Assembly (NCBI GenBank): GCA_002050465.1
Contig: MWYX01000064.1
Span: forward strand, 1 to 64,000
Direction: 5' to 3'
DNA length: 64,000 nt
From: Chitinophagales bacterium 65-1
GTDB lineage: Bacteria; Bacteroidota; Bacteroidia; Chitinophagales; Chitinophagaceae
Shown: positions 3,323 through 44,014 of the stretch, one piece after another
How the letters are laid out: every line of letters starts with the position of its first letter
How positions within the stretch are numbered: position 1 is the first letter of the stretch
Position numbers and translations under genes: made by a program
The notes under the pieces: generated by a model
Seen by the model: only the letters and a program-made list of their open reading frames with translations
Told to the model about the DNA's origin: nothing
Databases searched by the model: none

Positions 3323-3894
3323 ACTTTGCTAACCCTGTTTTCTTTTAAAAAGTATTTTTCCCCGCTTTCTCCACAAACAGCTTTTCCCTCTTCATTAAAT
3401 TTTAATTTTATCCCATATTCACTTACCCAGCCGGTTTGCCTGGCAGGGTTTCCGATTACTAATGCATATGGGGGAACTTCTTTGGTAACAACAGCACCTG
3501 CACCGATAAAGGAATATTCACCAATATTATTACCGCAAACTATTGTAGCATTTGCTCCAATTGAGGCTCCTTTTTTTACCAGTGTCTTTTTATATTCATG
3601 TTTACGAACTATAGCGCTGCGGGGGTTTATAACATTTGTAAAAACCATGGAAGGTCCCAGGAAAACATCATCCTCACAGACAACTCCTTCATAAAGTGAA
3701 ACATTGTTTTGCACCTTTACATTTTTACCTAGTTTAACACCTGAAGAAACTACTACATTTTGACCTAGATTACAATTGTCTCCTATAATACTATTTGGCA
3801 TTACATGGGTAAAATGCCAGATCTTAACGCCAATCCCTATTTTACATCCTTCATCAATAACTGCTGTAGGATGGGCAAAATAATTTTCCTTCAT
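3319..3894 (-). CDS. Left-handed beta-helix acyltransferase, WbpD/FdtC-like sugar N-acetyltransferase
   Basis: Hexapeptide-repeat protein of 191 residues. Repeats such as [26 protein letters not shown] and [26 protein letters not shown] form a left-handed beta-helix. [16 protein letters not shown] at the start and FTNVINPR resemble N-acetyltransferases for UDP-3-amino-uronic acids (WbpD/WlbB) or dTDP-3-amino-deoxyhexoses (FdtC/QdtC). Because it is the first gene of an operon with rfbB and rfbA, a dTDP-3-amino-6-deoxyhexose substrate is the likelier reading. The needed ketoisomerase and aminotransferase are not here. A start 30 bp upstream (3924) is possible; ATG at 3892-3894 fits homologues better. 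Confidence 0.8.
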
Positions 3895-3963
3895 GTTATT
3901 TATAAATTTTGCAATATTAAGCAATATCAGGCGAGGAAGTAGAGAATAGCAATCAATCTCCTG

Positions 3964-3999
3964 TTAATCCATATAATCCCCAAAATCATGGTTCAGACA
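3964..3999. repeat. Interspersed repeat, GGTTCAGACA family, copy 1
   Basis: About 36 bp ending in ATCATGGTTCAGACA, preceded by TTAATCC and TAATCCCC blocks. Close copies lie at 54259-54293 (same 15-base end) and 43628-43658 (diverged). This copy is intergenic, between two divergent genes. Confidence 0.7.
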
Positions 4000-4015
4000 A
4001 ATTACCTTTGCTGCC

Positions 4016-5902
4016 ATGCATTATGCTTCGGTTGAAAATATCAGTAAATCTTTTGGAATAAGAACGCTATTTAAGAATATTACCTTTTATGTGGAAGAAG
4101 GCGATAAAATTGCTTTTGTTGCCAGAAATGGTACAGGAAAATCTACATTATTAAAAATTATTGCAGGGTTGGATACAGTGGATAGCGGAACTGTATGGGT
4201 TCATAAAGAGGTAAAGGTTATTATGCTTCAACAGGATACGGTTTTTGATAATAATAAATCCATCTGGGATAATATTTTACGGATGGATAACCCCATTGTG
4301 AAAGTGGTTAAAGAATATGAGGTGTACTTAGAGAAAGGTGGTCACGATGAAAACAAATTGCATAAGCTTATAGATCAGCTAAGTGAATTGAATGCATGGA
4401 ATTTTGAAAGTGATCTTAAACAAATTTTAGGTAAGCTAAACCTCCATCATTTAAATGAACCGGTTAAAAACTTAAGTGGCGGACAAAGAAAGAGAGTTGC
4501 TCTTGCACAGGCATTGGTAGAATCACAGCTTCATGAAGGAAGATGTTTGTTGATATTGGATGAGCCTACCAACCATTTGGATGTTGAGATGATAGAATGG
4601 CTGGAAAATTTTCTTTCTACTCAAAAAAGCACTTTATTACTGGTAACCCATGACCGTTATTTTTTAGATACAGTTTGCAATGAGATTATTGAAATGGAAG
4701 ATGAAAAACTTTATGTGTATAGGGGGGATTATGATTATTTTTTAGAGCAAAAATCTTTGCGCCAGGAAGTACAACAAAGTGAATTACAAAAAGATAAAAA
4801 TATTTTCAGGAAAGAACTGGAGTGGATGCGTAAGCAGCCAAAGGCACGTACAACAAAATCAAAAAGCAGGCAGGATGCATTTGTTGATATCCAGGATAGG
4901 GTTAGCCGGCAAAAAGATGACCCGGAAATTTCATTACAGGTAAAGATGACAAGGCTTGGCGGAAAGGTGGTGGAGATGAAAAAGATTTATAAAAGCTATG
5001 GCGACAAACCGATAATGAAAGGTTTTGATTATACTTTTAAGAGAGGTGAACGGATAGGTATTGTTGGAAAGAATGGAGTTGGTAAATCTACCTTTTTGAA
5101 AATTGCATTGGGTAGTGAACCACCAGATAACGGAAAAATAAATCACGGCGATACTGTTGTATTTGGAAATTTTGCACAGGAAGGGTTACAATATAAAGAA
5201 GATAAAAGGGCAATTGAATATGTAAAAGATTTTGCCGAGTTTTTTCCTTTGGCTGATGGCAGTAAGATCAGCTCTACCCAATTCATGGAAAAATTTGGGT
5301 TTAATGCTCAGCAGCAATTTACACCATTGAGTAAACTTAGCGGCGGTGAAAAAAGAAGGCTTCATTTATTAAGTGTTTTGTTTCTCAACCCGAATTTTTT
5401 AATACTCGATGAGCCAACCAATGACCTCGATCTCCAAACATTAAGAACGCTGGAAGAATTTTTAAAAGATTTTCCCGGATGTATTTTAATTGTTAGTCAT
5501 GACCGTTATTTTATGGATAGAGTGGTTGACCACCTTTTTGCATTTGAAGGCGAAGGGGTTATAAAAGATTTTCCCGGCAATTATTCTGAATACAGGGAAT
5601 GGAAGGAAAGAGAAGAGACAAGTGACAAGTTAGAAGTCACCAAAGAAAGTTCATCTAAAACCCCCAACCCCCAAGCTACAAATAACAAACTGCAACATTC
5701 TTTTAAAGAGAAGTTTGAATTTGAAAAATTAGAGCAGGAAATGCCAGCACTGCAAAAAGAAAAAGTTAGTCTTGAAGAAAAAATGAATTCTGCAAATATT
5801 GGTTTTGATGAATTGCAAAAATCATCTGAAAGAATTAATGAAATTATAAAGCTTCTCGATGAAAAGGAAATGCGTTGGCTGGAATTGAGTGAGAGAATTT
5901 AA
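4016..5902 (+). CDS. ABC-F family ATPase, Uup type
   Basis: A soluble twin-ATPase of 628 residues without membrane segments. The first ATPase has Walker A ARNGTGKST (36-44), signature LSGGQRKR and Walker B LLILDEPTNHLD. The second has GKNGVGKST, LSGGEKRR and FLILDEPTNDLD. A C-terminal charged coiled coil (about 565-628) is typical of Uup, which acts on ribosomes or branched DNA. A low-complexity linker (about 530-560, TSDKLEVTKESSSKTPNPQ) joins ATPase 2 to the coiled coil. Its DNA has short direct repeats (AAGTGACAAG-like and AACCCCCAACCCCC), which suggests local repeat expansion. It is a monocistronic-looking gene followed after 26 bp by the NagX-like gene. Confidence 0.9.
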   Translation: MHYASVENISKSFGIRTLFKNITFYVEEGDKIAFVARNGTGKSTLLKIIAGLDTVDSGTVWVHKEVKVIMLQQDTVFDNNKSIWDNILRMDNPIVKVVKEYEVYLEKGGHDENKLHKLIDQLSELNAWNFESDLKQILGKLNLHHLNEPVKNLSGGQRKRVALAQALVESQLHEGRCLLILDEPTNHLDVEMIEWLENFLSTQKSTLLLVTHDRYFLDTVCNEIIEMEDEKLYVYRGDYDYFLEQKSLRQEVQQSELQKDKNIFRKELEWMRKQPKARTTKSKSRQDAFVDIQDRVSRQKDDPEISLQVKMTRLGGKVVEMKKIYKSYGDKPIMKGFDYTFKRGERIGIVGKNGVGKSTFLKIALGSEPPDNGKINHGDTVVFGNFAQEGLQYKEDKRAIEYVKDFAEFFPLADGSKISSTQFMEKFGFNAQQQFTPLSKLSGGEKRRLHLLSVLFLNPNFLILDEPTNDLDLQTLRTLEEFLKDFPGCILIVSHDRYFMDRVVDHLFAFEGEGVIKDFPGNYSEYREWKEREETSDKLEVTKESSSKTPNPQATNNKLQHSFKEKFEFEKLEQEMPALQKEKVSLEEKMNSANIGFDELQKSSERINEIIKLLDEKEMRWLELSERI

Positions 5903-5928
5903 TTAACTTTCTTTTTTCAAACCTGCAT

Positions 5929-7104
5929 ATGAAAGAAAGATTTTATTCACTTGATGTGTTTCGGGGCGCCACAGTTGCATTAATGATACTGGTAAATAAT
6001 CCCGGTTCCTGGAGTCATATTTATTCGCCACTAAAACATGCACCCTGGCATGGCGCCACACCAACTGATCTTGTGTTCCCGTTCTTTTTATTTGCTGTAG
6101 GTAATGCATTGGCTTTTGTTATGCCAAGATTAGAAGCTGCAGGCGAAGGAGTTTTCTGGAGAAAAATTTTAAAAAGAACCTTTCTTATTTTTTTTATTGG
6201 CTTAATGCTTAACTGGTTTCCCTTTATAAAGTGGGAGAATGATGTTATAGCGTTTAAACCATGGGAATATATTGATGCCAATGGAAAGGCGCAGGGGGTA
6301 AGAATTTTAGGAGTGTTACAAAGAATTGCGCTTGCTTATTTTTTCGCATCTGTAATCATTCATTTTTTTAAAATAAGAGGTGCTTTTGTTGCTGCCGCAG
6401 TAATATTATTAGGTTATTGGTTTTTGTGTGTAGTCGGCAATCCTGCTGATCCCTTTAGTTTACAAGGCTGGTTTGGAACTTCTGTTGACAAAAATATTTT
6501 AGGCGATGCACACATGTATAAAGGCGAAGGAGTCGTTTTTGATCCTGAAGGATTAATGAGTTTGTTTGCAGCAATAGTACAGGTAATATTTGGATATTTT
6601 GCCGGAGATTATATTTTAAAAAAAGGCAAAACACATGAAATGGTTAACGGATTATTTGTTGCCGGTTGTGTATTGGCGCTGGCAGGACTTTGCTGGGGGA
6701 TGGTATTCCCGATCAACAAAAAAATATGGACAAGCTCTTATACAGTTTATACAACAGGGTTAGCGCTTCTAACACTATCAGTTTTCATCTATATAATTGA
6801 ATTTAAAAACTGGCGGGGTTGGTGGAGTAAGTTCTTTGATGTATTCGGGAAAAACCCTTTGTTCATTTTTGTTTTGAGTGGTGCATTGCCCAGATTGTTG
6901 GGGCTGATAAGAATTCCTAACGGAATAAATCCTGATGGCAAACAATTATATACAACCCCCTTCGGTTGGTTTTATGAGCATATTTGCAAACCCATTTCTT
7001 CCAATCTTAATAATGGCTCCTTATTGTATGCAGTTTCTATGATACTGATGTATTGGTTAATTGTATGGTTTATGGATAAGAAGAAGATTTATATAAGGGT
7101 ATAA
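5929..7104 (+). CDS. Multi-pass membrane acyltransferase, NagX/DUF5009-like
   Basis: 391 residues with roughly ten hydrophobic segments. The N-terminus RFYSLDVFRGATVALMILVN, then NPGSW and HAPWHGATPTDLVFPFFLF are the hallmarks of the NagX/heparan-alpha-glucosaminide N-acetyltransferase (HGSNAT) family; the His of HAPWHG aligns with the catalytic His. In that family acetyl groups pass across the membrane to amino sugars, but the bacterial substrate is usually unknown. It lies 26 bp after the ABC-F gene and 76 bp before the SET operon, so cotranscription with either is possible but not shown. Confidence 0.85.
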   Translation: MKERFYSLDVFRGATVALMILVNNPGSWSHIYSPLKHAPWHGATPTDLVFPFFLFAVGNALAFVMPRLEAAGEGVFWRKILKRTFLIFFIGLMLNWFPFIKWENDVIAFKPWEYIDANGKAQGVRILGVLQRIALAYFFASVIIHFFKIRGAFVAAAVILLGYWFLCVVGNPADPFSLQGWFGTSVDKNILGDAHMYKGEGVVFDPEGLMSLFAAIVQVIFGYFAGDYILKKGKTHEMVNGLFVAGCVLALAGLCWGMVFPINKKIWTSSYTVYTTGLALLTLSVFIYIIEFKNWRGWWSKFFDVFGKNPLFIFVLSGALPRLLGLIRIPNGINPDGKQLYTTPFGWFYEHICKPISSNLNNGSLLYAVSMILMYWLIVWFMDKKKIYIRV

Positions 7105-7180
7105 TTTGTTTATATCTTAGGCACATACCAATTAAATCTTTTATATTTTTAATCCATCCCATTGTTAACAAATACTTACT

Positions 7181-39661: not shown

Positions 39662-40882
39662 TTAACTCCTCAACTCAAAAGCTTGCCTCGCTGCTTTACG
39701 GGCAGGAAGCCATGCAGCAATAAAAGCAATAATCAATGCTGTGGATGCAACCAATAAAAAATCTGTAGCAATAAGTTTTACGGGAAAATAATCTATAAGA
39801 AAAGAATTGCCTGTAAGTTTTATCAACTTAAATTGTGATTGCAGAGCACAAATAATGGTTGCCAAACACAAGCCAATAGCTGCTCCCGTAACAGCCAATA
39901 TCAATCCCTCACTCAAAAATATTTTTAATATCAGGCTTTTATCAGCGCCTAATGACTGCAACACACTAATATCTTTTCTTTTTTCCAATACAAGCATAGT
40001 CAGAGCGCTTATCATATTGAATGCCGCGATAATGAGAATGAGTGTAAGTACCGCATAAATAGCCCACTTCTCCACTTTCATACTGGTGTACAAACTTGTA
40101 TTTTGCTGATACTTAGTTTGCACGGTATACTTACTTCCCAGCATTTTTTGTAAAGCGTTCGTTACATCATCTGTTTCTTTAGGGTGTGATAAGGCAATTT
40201 CAACAGCACTATATTCATTAGCGGCATAATTCATCTGATGCTTTATAAAATCAATATTGGTAATAACATATTTATTGTCAAAATCCTGCTGAATGGCAAA
40301 GCTGCCTGAGGGATATGCATTGCCTTCACTTAAAGATTCTGAAGGGTCGGAGGAAGCATACCCTATTTTTTTTGGCAGAAAAACAGTAAGTGGTGTTAAG
40401 CTTTTATCAGCCTGAACTCCCACAGCATATTCAATTCCGGCACCCAATATTAATTGCGGCTCATCAGCAGAGCCGGTTTCAAATACTCCATTAAGCATTT
40501 TTTGTGGTACACCTGAAACATTATTGTAATTATCATCTACTCCTTTCAAAAAAACAACAGTTTGCAAATCACCGTTCTGTAACAAGGCTTTTTCCTGTGC
40601 AACAAGTGAAATGTTCTTTACTTCTTTAAAATTTTTAATAGAATTAATTTGCTCTGCTGTTAGCAGAATGGTTTTTCCCCTGGAAGCAATTACCCTTACG
40701 TCGGTATAAAAATTAGAATAAAGTGAACGTACCAGGTCCTCAAAGCCATTAAACACACTTAAAACCAATACCTGGCACATGGTTGAAAATGCAATAACGC
40801 AAACAGTAACCCAGCTTATAATATTTATCGCATTGGTGCTTTTTTTTGCTTTAAAATATCTCCATGCAAATGTGAGGTACAA
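39662..40882 (-). CDS. FtsX-like permease, LolC/LolE type
   Basis: 406 residues. The N-terminal helix (INIISWVTVCVIAFSTMCQV) is followed by a MacB-like periplasmic domain. Three C-terminal helices follow, the first with LTLILIIAAFNMISALTMLVLEKRKDISVLQSLGA. The conserved KRKDI and SLGA identify lipoprotein-releasing permeases, which pull lipoproteins from the inner membrane. The ATPase gene is not adjacent. In many Bacteroidota this gene follows rbfA; here an accessory island (about 41-43.6 kb) lies between them. Confidence 0.87.
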   Translation of the reverse strand: MYLTFAWRYFKAKKSTNAINIISWVTVCVIAFSTMCQVLVLSVFNGFEDLVRSLYSNFYTDVRVIASRGKTILLTAEQINSIKNFKEVKNISLVAQEKALLQNGDLQTVVFLKGVDDNYNNVSGVPQKMLNGVFETGSADEPQLILGAGIEYAVGVQADKSLTPLTVFLPKKIGYASSDPSESLSEGNAYPSGSFAIQQDFDNKYVITNIDFIKHQMNYAANEYSAVEIALSHPKETDDVTNALQKMLGSKYTVQTKYQQNTSLYTSMKVEKWAIYAVLTLILIIAAFNMISALTMLVLEKRKDISVLQSLGADKSLILKIFLSEGLILAVTGAAIGLCLATIICALQSQFKLIKLTGNSFLIDYFPVKLIATDFLLVASTALIIAFIAAWLPARKAARQAFELRS

Positions 40883-41048: not shown

Positions 41049-41891
41049 ATGGAAAAAAACAATAGAAAAGTTGATTCTAAAGAAGTAGGCCTTGAAATCG
41101 GATTGATTTTCTTCAAGCATTTTTTAAATACCGAATATCTGCATTATGGTTTTTTCGATGATGAGCTTCCGGCTGATATTGCCAATTTGGCGAAAGCTCA
41201 GCAGAATTATGCAGATTTTTTAATGTCTCATATTCCCACCGGTACAAAAACTATCCTGGACGTTGGTTGTGGATCAGGAAAATTTGCATTGGAATTAATT
41301 AAAAAAGGATATACAGTTGACTGCGTTTCTCCGGGCACTATTCTTACAAATCATGCCAGAGGTGTATTGGGAGATAAAGTGCAAATTTATCAGAGTAAAT
41401 TTGAAGATGTAAAAACTGATAACAAGTATGACTTAATTCTTTTCAGTGAAAGCTTTCAATATATTCCAATGGATAATTCTTTCACAAACGGATTGAATGC
41501 TTTAAATTCAGGCGGACATATTATGATATCTGATTTTTTTCAGATAGATGTGGAAGGAAAAAGCCCACTTGGCGGAGGACATAATTTTAAGGAATTTCAG
41601 GAAATAATTAAAAAATATCCGGTAAAGCTTATCAAAGAGCAAGACATCACTAAAGAAACTGCTCCTACTATAGATATAGTGAATGGTTTATACATGGAAG
41701 TATTATTTCCAATAACAAATCTTATTTCTCTTTTGGCAGAAGACCGGTTTCCCTTAGCAGTAAAGTTTATTAAGTGGAAATATAAAAAGAAATTAGAGAA
41801 GCTGCAGAATAAGCATTTTAAAGGTGAAAGAAATGCAATAAACTTTATAAAATATAAAACTTACAGATTCCATCTTTTTCAAAAAACGTAA
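41049..41891 (+). CDS. Class I SAM-dependent methyltransferase
   Basis: 280 residues. Motif I ILDVGCGSGKFALELIKKG begins at about residue 74. YDLILFSESFQYIP and GGHIMISDFF are the post-I regions. NTEYLHYGFFDDE ahead of motif I resembles methyltransferases acting on small molecules or lipids. The C-terminal third is basic. The substrate is unknown. The gene sits in the island between lolC and rbfA, beside an interrupted outer-membrane gene. Confidence 0.85.
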   Translation: MEKNNRKVDSKEVGLEIGLIFFKHFLNTEYLHYGFFDDELPADIANLAKAQQNYADFLMSHIPTGTKTILDVGCGSGKFALELIKKGYTVDCVSPGTILTNHARGVLGDKVQIYQSKFEDVKTDNKYDLILFSESFQYIPMDNSFTNGLNALNSGGHIMISDFFQIDVEGKSPLGGGHNFKEFQEIIKKYPVKLIKEQDITKETAPTIDIVNGLYMEVLFPITNLISLLAEDRFPLAVKFIKWKYKKKLEKLQNKHFKGERNAINFIKYKTYRFHLFQKT

Positions 41892-41968
41892 TTAGTGTTA
41901 TTTGGGTATTTAGATGATTTCTCACTAAGGCTGCCTGCATAAGGAACAACAAAAGAAGGGAAGTATAA

Positions 41969-42313
41969 CCGGGTCCCTTTAACAACATATATTTATCAAT
42001 AACAGATTTTAGAATAACACATACAAATATTTTTTACCAGGTTTATTATGAAAGAAGTTTATTAAAAAAAATACCAGCGTTTAAATGCCAATTAGGTCTG
42101 TTCTATTTAAGAATGAATCAGCAGGAAATAGGATTAGAGAATTTTTCCAACACTATAGTTTTGGATGAAAGAAACTTCAAAAACAGTAAGCTTGAAGAAG
42201 GTGTTACTTTTTTGGGCATTCATTATTCAAAAAAAATTGATACAAAATTTGAGTTGGGAATTAAAAGCAGAGTTTACTACTTAGTTTCAACAGGTACATT
42301 TGAAGCAATACCA
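41969..42313 (+). pseudogene. Outer-membrane beta-barrel protein remnant, interrupted by insertion
   Basis: From 41969 to 42313 a stop-free frame reads ITDFRITHTNIFYQVYYER and FSNTIVLDERNFKNS, then KFELGIKSRVYYLVSTGTFE and AIP. This looks like the last strands of an outer-membrane barrel. No proper N-terminus or signal peptide is seen; a stop lies just upstream, and another frame carries similar-looking residues, so a frameshift is likely. The frame is broken at 42314 by an inserted element. Its last residues (PTLTYNF, stop) appear in frame at 43576-43599, beyond the element. The in-frame ORF that runs on into the element is not a gene. Confidence 0.65.
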
Positions 42314-43575
42314 TGTTGGGCGTATGTGCTGTCCTTACTTATCTACTTTGTTATTGTATGGAATATAATTTTGCCATCGCCATGGTATACAAGTATTGCC
42401 TATTATAGTTTCTATAAGTTCCTGAAATATTTTTTCTCCATTTTCGCTATTTATCATGATTATAATCGATGTGCCCTTGTCAATAAAATTGATATTATAA
42501 TTTTTCCAAGCGCCACCATTTCCTTCTTTAAAAAATGCTTTGCCATACTGACAATCCAGAAGCCCCCAACCCAGACCATAAGATAAATGAATGGCATCAT
42601 TTTCAGTGGTGGTTTCTTCTGTTATTGGTGGAAATTGTGTTTTTGAATGTATGGTAATTTGAGGCGAAAGCATCTCCTTATACATACTTTTTTTGATTCC
42701 TTTTTGTTGCATCACATTTTCAATAAACCTTGCATAATCGGCCATGGTAGTCACTAAAGAACCACCTGCAACAGGCTCTTTGCGTTTCTTTTTTGAATCT
42801 ATAGCACCATTATTCATATGTCCTACAGCTACATTGTCATCGCCAAACGAATCATGCCATATATAACCTGTTCTTGTCATTCTCAACGGTTTAAATATTT
42901 TCTCCTGAGCCAGTTCATCAATATTTTTTTGAGTGATTTCTTCAACTGCCAATTGCAGAAGTTTAAAACCTTCACCAGAGTAAGCATATTTTTCTCCGGG
43001 TGCAAAATAAATTTTAATAACACCCAATGAATCCATTTCGTCAGATTTAGGATTAAACCATCTTACATTTGGCAACCCACTTGTATGACTTAAACACATT
43101 CGTGGGGTTATTAGTTTCCATCTGTCGTCATTCTTTAAGTCTGAAAAATACTCATAATCGGGAATTGGTTTTTTCAGGTATTTATAAATTGGCTTGTCTA
43201 AATCAATAATTTTTTCCTCCACCAACTTCATAACCAAATACCCAAAAACAGCCTTGCTGAAGGAAGCTGCATATACAATTGTGGATGTGTTTAATAATGT
43301 GTTGTCAGGTTTATTTTTAAAACCATATGATTTAATAAAAACGGTTTTTTTATTATTCAGTATTGCTAAATTTAACCCCTGAACATTTGCGGCATCCATC
43401 AATCTTTTTACTGTTTTATCAATTTCAGCGGATGAAACTTCACTTCCATCAAGTCTTGTTACTTTTTTTGTTTGTCCATTGATGCTGCTAAATGATAGAA
43501 AAAGTGCAAATAATATTGTATACTTCATATTTTATGGTTTGTCTGTAACAGTGTTTAATAGCATTACGCCCAACA
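42314..43575. mobile_element. Inverted-repeat-bounded single-gene insertion (no transposase)
   Basis: The left end TGTTGGGCGTA (42314-42324) and right end TACGCCCAACA (43565-43575) are exact reverse complements. Between them is only the serine-hydrolase gene, whose stop is 11 bp inside the left repeat and whose start is 36 bp inside the right one. ACC occurs on both outer sides (42310-42312, 43575-43577) and may be a 3-bp target duplication. Removing the element joins GTFEAIP to PTLTYNF-stop in frame. No transposase or integrase is present, so any mobility would need outside enzymes. Confidence 0.7.
42335..43528 (-). CDS. Beta-lactamase-family (class C/DD-peptidase-like) serine hydrolase
   Basis: 397 residues with a signal peptide (MKYTILFALFLSFSSINGQT). 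The serine motif is AASFSKAVFG (SxxK). YAYSGEGF is the Y-x-[SN]-like motif and FFKEGNGGAWKN occupies the KTG/HxG site. Related proteins are esterases, D-aminopeptidases or penicillin-binding hydrolases. Resistance is not implied. It fills almost the whole of an inverted-repeat-bounded insertion, and its promoter would have to fit within the 36-47 bp before the start. Confidence 0.88.
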   Translation of the reverse strand: MKYTILFALFLSFSSINGQTKKVTRLDGSEVSSAEIDKTVKRLMDAANVQGLNLAILNNKKTVFIKSYGFKNKPDNTLLNTSTIVYAASFSKAVFGYLVMKLVEEKIIDLDKPIYKYLKKPIPDYEYFSDLKNDDRWKLITPRMCLSHTSGLPNVRWFNPKSDEMDSLGVIKIYFAPGEKYAYSGEGFKLLQLAVEEITQKNIDELAQEKIFKPLRMTRTGYIWHDSFGDDNVAVGHMNNGAIDSKKKRKEPVAGGSLVTTMADYARFIENVMQQKGIKKSMYKEMLSPQITIHSKTQFPPITEETTTENDAIHLSYGLGWGLLDCQYGKAFFKEGNGGAWKNYNINFIDKGTSIIIMINSENGEKIFQELIETIIGNTCIPWRWQNYIPYNNKVDK

Positions 43576-43599
43576 CCTACATTAACGTATAATTTTTAA
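43576..43599 (+). pseudogene. Last codons of the interrupted outer-membrane barrel gene
   Basis: Eight codons reading PTLTYNF then stop. Barrel proteins end on an aromatic residue, as here. It joins in frame to the 41969-42313 remnant when the inserted element is removed. It is too short to stand alone; the argument rests on the junction. Confidence 0.6.
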
Positions 43600-43627: not shown

Positions 43628-43658
43628 TTATCCTAATCCCATAAATCATAGTTGAGAC
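43628..43658. repeat. Interspersed repeat, GGTTCAGACA family, diverged copy covering the rbfA stop
   Basis: TTATCCTAATCCCATAAATC followed by ATAGTTGAGAC. Matches copies at 54259 and 3964 with a few changes. The rbfA stop codon (43646-43648) and its last residues (KSQL) fall inside. Confidence 0.6.
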
Positions 43659-44014
43659 TTATCCTCTTTTTTTATCTTCTCCAACAACTCTTCCATCCTA
43701 AAAACATAATCCAGGGTATCATCAATATAAAAAGTTATTTGGGGTATGCTGCGCAACTGATGGCGAACCCTGTTGCCTAATTCCTTCCTTATCTCTTTAC
43801 TTTTTTCCTGGATCTTTGTAAGCATTGCATCATTATCTTTTATCTGGAAAAAACTCAGGTAAACTCTTGCCTCAAAAAGATCAGGGGTAATTTTCACTGA
43901 AGAAATAGAAACCATTCCTCCATCCTGCATATTTAAACCCATCCTTAAAAAAATATCATTAAGCTCATGAATTATAACGCCGGCCACCTGTTTTTGTCTT
44001 TTTCCCTCTGTCAT
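43646..44014 (-). CDS. rbfA: Ribosome-binding factor A
   Basis: 122 residues. Helps mature the 30S subunit, including 16S rRNA 5' processing. RQKQVAGVIIHELNDIFLRMG at the N-terminus, SISSVKITPDLFEARVYLSF in the KH-like core and QLRSIPQITFYIDDTLDYV (conserved P-x-l-x-F-x-D) are all present. The final residues come from an interspersed repeat that carries the stop codon. Confidence 0.95.
   Translation of the reverse strand: MTEGKRQKQVAGVIIHELNDIFLRMGLNMQDGGMVSISSVKITPDLFEARVYLSFFQIKDNDAMLTKIQEKSKEIRKELGNRVRHQLRSIPQITFYIDDTLDYVFRMEELLEKIKKEDKSQL

Follow-up and report, generated by a model that had tools for sequence, protein, structure and literature searches.

How a single gene came to lie inside another one, and whether it could leave again, is the question raised by a segment of 1,262 bp (42314-43575) that interrupts an outer-membrane barrel sequence and is bounded by an 11-bp inverted pair. 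The original prediction described it as a non-autonomous unit of one gene, moved by an outside enzyme, the removal of which would restore the frame of the interrupted gene. We analysed the locus within its window, that is, the whole stretch of 64,000 nucleotides, and worked with the following features (5' and 3' ends of the unit are named relative to its gene):

39662..40882, minus strand: permease of the ABC type (LolE-like), bordering the island on the left; three congeners have it at 89-90% identity
40905..43645 (approximate), no strand: island with methyltransferase, barrel remnant, and hydrolase unit, absent from congeners
41049..41891, plus strand: class I methyltransferase gene, within the island
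41948..42313, plus strand: 5'-truncated outer-membrane barrel remnant by homologue alignment, certain homology ending at GAAGCAATA (42302-42310)
42314..42324, minus strand: 3' end of the unit, which reads TACGCCCAACA on this strand and contains GCCCAAC, an R''-type box
42335..43528, minus strand: gene for a serine hydrolase of 397 aa, assigned to the S12/Beta-lactamase fold family by PF00144 profile match
43565..43575, minus strand: 5' end of the unit, TGTTGGGCGTA, containing GTTGGGC, an integron R'-type box
43572..43599, plus strand: resumed barrel 3' end, AACACCTACATTAACGTATAATTTTTAA, reading (L/x)TPTLTYNF-stop in the alignment with 13 homologous loci
43646..44014, minus strand: rbfA, right-hand flank of the island, last codons different from those of congeners

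On both sides of the segment (41948-42313, and from 43572 onward), the sequence matches a family of outer-membrane barrels over its C-terminal half. The 13 homologous loci come from two genomes of the genus (G017 and G006) and eleven further genomes of the family, the best being 65% identical; they share the end consensus EA-[VIL]-T-[LF]-T-P-[TA]-L-[TS]-Y-x-F, of which EAVTLTPALSYNF is an example. The predicted barrel gene and its continuation across the junction are borne out by these loci, as the C-terminus resumes just outside the unit. Also, deletion of the 1,262 bp does fuse GTFEAIP to PTLTYNF-stop in frame, as had been claimed. In the joined barrel, EA and P-T-L are separated by two residues, versus four in all the 13 homologues: the join, two codons short, is thus in frame but differs from the original sequence, and compared with the homologues about 5-6 nt of target were apparently lost. 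Furthermore, the first ~90-115 residues of the barrel are missing, its homology starting at 41948, just past the methyltransferase stop (41891), and an in-frame TAA is present at 41966-41968. Because of this N-terminal loss and this stop codon, we read the barrel as a dead remnant, in which excision would repair nothing useful; of the claimed restoration, the frame stands and the working gene does not.

The junction itself shows no target duplication. Read as coding sequence, AACACC (43572-43577) belongs to the barrel ('(TT)A ACA CCT'), with which the right-hand repeat shares its A and AAC. The ACC found at both ends, which had been proposed as the flanks of the insertion, fails as a duplication, the right-hand copy (43575-43577) overlapping the repeat. 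With the barrel homologues aligned, no target duplication was found outside the repeats. The one duplication that could be written, 2 bp of CA, falls within the repeat and presupposes a target with two codons fewer than in every homologue. The barrel-side breakpoint, ...AACACC, would correspond to a target GGTG^TT on the unit strand, as judged from the 13 loci and given the 5-6 nt of target that are missing. The search for barrel homologues returned no true empty site.

On a wider scale, rbfA and the permease gene are adjacent in 11 congeneric genomes, with ~40-60 bp between them, versus ~2.7 kb in the window. This adjacency indicates that the hydrolase unit is nested in a foreign patch larger than itself. 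The methyltransferase gave no match at E<=1e-40 in the 194 other genomes of the family. The island border also altered the C-terminus of rbfA (43646-43680), its last codons being unlike those of congeners. From these comparisons we conclude that the hydrolase unit is inserted and not native.

The interval holds one gene (42335-43528, minus strand), so the hydrolase is, as predicted, its sole content. Its product matches the Pfam Beta-lactamase family PF00144 with an E-value of 5e-44 (151 bits, curated cut-off 27), has a signal-peptide-like N-terminus, and carries an SFSK motif; among solved structures, it is closest to a PBP-related beta-lactamase and to esterases. As it falls below every specific NCBIfam equivalog cut-off, it corresponds to no named beta-lactamase or peptidase. 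The plasmid search returned proteins less than 31% identical only and no DNA match, and the viral contigs gave no match.

Then, we considered the ends of the unit. On the forward strand, TGTTGGGCGTA occupies 42314-42324 and TACGCCCAACA occupies 43565-43575; they are complementary at 11/11 bp, and the exact reverse-complement ends of the original prediction are confirmed letter by letter. The 5' box lies 47 bp before the hydrolase start codon, and the stop codon lies 10 bp before the 3' box. Perfect 11-bp inverted pairs are not rare in this AT-rich DNA (three in 2.4 kb), and 15 out of 5,000 dinucleotide-model sequences of the two flanks of the hydrolase gene reach 11/11 pairing. What gives the pair its weight is therefore its position at the two breakpoints, defined independently by barrel homology, and not the inverted pairing as such: among 300,000 random placements in the window, only 39 put an 11-bp pair within a few bases of both breakpoints. 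A generic scan for paired ends starting with GTTRRRY and lying 0.35-2.6 kb apart found the 42314/43575 pair as the sole one in the window.

The relatives of the hydrolase gene were then compared for their ends. The closest are L045 (80% identical), L222 (77%), and L046 (73%), the others being 57-72% identical. L045 has TGTTAGGCGAT 43 bp upstream of its start and ATCGCCTGACA 8 bp past its stop, paired at 10/11 positions, so that the box distances are -43/+8 versus -47/+10 in the window. Compared with the pair of the window, the L045 pair shows three changes, each two-sided (G-C to A-T, T-A to A-T, and A-T to T-A), and the outer TGC/GCA is common to the ends of both. Taken alone the L045 pairing is unremarkable, 324 out of 5,000 shuffles reaching it, and the value of the pair lies in its matching position and core letters, not in its pairing strength. 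The L045 unit, too, lies inside another gene: an MKRKILAGLLC start precedes the 5' box, and the 3' box is followed by the final ~25 codons of a paralogous hydrolase gene, GDTFTPWQWERYWPY. Among the other TGTTRGGCG sites examined in the L045 genome, none had a partner. The paired ends of L045 are, in our view, the strongest support, and suggest that the hydrolase gene and its boxes form a one-gene unit; such a paired-end unit is known from two genomes only, that of the window and that of L045.

The two copies also share letters around the 3' box. The sequence GTATTGCT[T/G]CAA is found within a few bases of it in both the window (42311-42325) and L045 (1660-1690), and GTATTGCTKCAA, common to both, stands just past it, where it is barrel sequence in the window. 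The shared letters past the 3' box could reflect either a common target preference, microhomology, or coincidence.

The absence of these ends from related hydrolase genes was the outcome that the original prediction had named as contrary to it, and the relatives gave a divided answer: L045 has paired ends, and most others do not, some of them having the 3' box alone. A 3' box (consensus about GCACAAACGCCTAACA) follows the stop codon in L045, L046, L049, and L160, and in a weaker form in L222 and L224; except for L045, these loci have no paired 5' box. In L047, L048, L158, and L159 no 3' box was found. In addition, the start of the L049 hydrolase overlaps an upstream HTH gene in an operon-like arrangement. 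Together, the 3' box without a 5' box and the upstream overlap in L049 mean that the 3' box may be the native 3' flank of the hydrolase gene, the 5' box alone being special. As for the surroundings of these loci, the genes downstream of the L049 hydrolase relative (3370-6840) are presumably AbiEi/AbiEii-like, judging from their translation, and the L046 relative (1-1603) comes, by our reading, after a small lipoprotein-like gene and the end of a protein with Rhs-like repeats. At L041 (2523-2870; G005:C411), the N-terminal part of a small unrelated gene stands directly before the last ~50 codons of a hydrolase-family gene; no paired ends were found at this C-terminus remnant.

The idea that such units form a family found no support in the genomes searched. 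The assembly of the window (draft, 1.96 Mb, ~80% complete) contains no further exact TGTTGGGCGTA, and none of its sites with one mismatch form close inverted pairs; two of these, which the window has at 7180 and 32770, were considered as unit ends and discarded, since they lie in genes or at gene starts. In 59 related genomes, the sites matching TGTTRGGCGTAA lie nearly all within coding ORFs, and their total is near that of the control.

On this evidence our leading reading, held tentatively, is that 42314-43575 is a one-gene unit that was acquired horizontally, has integron-like ends, and is moved in trans. The unit consists of the serine-hydrolase gene and two mutually pairing terminal boxes, and was inserted, in antisense, close to the 3' terminus of a barrel gene that was already decaying or decayed later, within the small foreign island that separates rbfA from the permease gene. 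It would most probably act in the manner of an integron gene cassette. In a circular form the boxes would join into a single stem (TACGCCCAACA/TGTTGGGCGTA), and a circular or tandem junction would read TACGCCCAACATGTTGGGCGTA; the joined circle end folds much better than shuffles (z -4.3). A tyrosine recombinase acting in trans would insert the circle at a G^TT target (GGTG^TT on the coding strand of the unit). Should the unit derive from an integron, the loop part of its attC would since have been lost. Against a cassette, the join is 6 nt shorter than the homologues, which clean recombination would not give. Of the non-autonomous one-gene unit first proposed, the foreign insert with inverted ends in a barrel sequence is retained, with the ends of L045 in its favour, and the reversible insertion that repairs a working gene is abandoned.

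We favour the paired-end single-gene unit, with ordinary illegitimate insertion close behind it. Illegitimate or microhomology recombination could have pasted the hydrolase gene and its native flanks into the barrel remnant by means of short shared sequences, GGTGTT on one side and a TATTGCTTCAA-like sequence on the other, the pairing being inherited from the flanks or partly due to chance. This is a real possibility, if somewhat less probable: it fits with L046, L049, and L160 having a 3' box but no 5' box, with the GTATTGCTKCAA common to the window and L045, as if donor and target were homologous, with the small deletion of target (about 5-6 nt), and with the searches made, in which a recombinase, further copies, and a target duplication were all not found. 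It leaves unexplained the perfect 11-bp pair exactly at both breakpoints (the 39/300,000 placements) and why the pairs of the window and L045 differ by changes on both sides at corresponding positions.

A mobile insertion cassette (mic) appears unlikely. Such transposon-like elements are non-autonomous: terminal inverted repeats enclose a passenger gene, and the transposase that moves it comes from a related insertion sequence (IS). The anatomy is that of mic-qnrS2 and mic-qnrD (PMC2600179, PMC5444012, PMC3913671), the ends are of the TG...CA type, and the 2-bp CA duplication that can be written would be as in mic-qnrD. Against this, the ends are short (11 bp), the CA duplication falls inside the repeat, and the two known copies, those of the window and L045, have different ends; moreover, neither an IS nor another copy was found with these ends in the own genome by pattern, or with TGTTRGGCGTAA in the 59 relatives. 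An invertible DNA segment, in which the inverted ends around the one gene would be recombination sites that flip it, is very improbable, since the split barrel coding sequence means that the whole segment was gained, the orientation of the gene relative to the 5' and 3' boxes is identical in both known copies, and no invertase gene was found in the neighbourhood.

Single genes out of place without adjacent machinery are frequent in bacterial genomes. If the short, co-changing paired ends described here are recombination sites, they would offer a handle for finding one-gene units in Bacteroidota; if they are not, the locus is a caution that inverted ends can surround an ordinary acquired gene.

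Among the known systems, the first to be compared is the integron gene cassette. The boxes follow the integron consensus, R' GTTRRRY and R'' RYYYAAC (PMC12901181). GTTGGGC before the gene and GCCCAAC after it have the form, the order, and the mutual pairing of integron boxes; the likeness noted in the original prediction is real, and the attC body is indeed absent. After the R'' box we found no L'', loop, L', or second R', and no GTTRRRY partner; the barrel coding sequence begins ~4-10 nt from R'', and the 80-nt stretch after it folds no better than shuffles. No integron integrase above the TIGR02249 cut-off was found in the own assembly (~80% complete) or in the two congeners searched. Within the family, one of 195 genomes has a match over the cut-off, in a broken gene with one stop (L195, G212:C24:31071-31796), and no attC was recognisable near it. 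The attC-like pattern ACGCCYAAC-N20-50-GTTRGGCGT matched in two of the 248 genomes of the order, a chance-level result, with controls equally frequent. Integrons are very rare in Bacteroidetes according to IntegronFinder 2.0 (PMC9024848).

The unit shares with integron cassettes a single gene with no machinery of its own visible, a GTTRRRY start and a complementary RYYYAAC end that pair with each other, and what may be a G^TT-type target, with no target duplication. It differs from them in that the attC body is absent, the integrase was not found, and the unit stands single. By the tests run it is not an integron cassette, though it plausibly works like one. It is improbable that the unit represents a class of minimal Bacteroidota cassettes, in which the attC would be reduced to its outer stem, the complementary box pair would be the sole recombination signal, and the recombinase that moves them between genes would be other than the classical integron integrase.

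The second comparison is with the mics. mic-qnrS2 (1,375 bp, one gene, 22-bp imperfect repeats) has been reported to disrupt a metalloprotease gene on plasmid pAC3 (PMC2600179, PMC5444012, PMC3913671), and MIC231A1 carries a D-stereospecific endopeptidase gene (PMC3913671). Like MIC231, mic-qnrS2, and mic-qnrD, the unit is a single passenger between inverted repeats, without a transposase, which interrupts a gene; unlike with them, no 22-24-bp repeats, no target duplication, and, as for MIC231, no related IS were found here. The passenger offers a further parallel, the D-stereospecific endopeptidase of MIC231A1 being also among the S12-like serine hydrolases.

Finally, the XerC/D p-dif modules of Acinetobacter are single genes flanked by inversely oriented recombination sites and moved by an outside tyrosine recombinase; the known ones are carried on plasmids. 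The end letters of the window unit are presumably unrelated to dif; the arrangement would nonetheless be the same, a single gene flanked by inverted ends with, as proposed, its recombinase located elsewhere.
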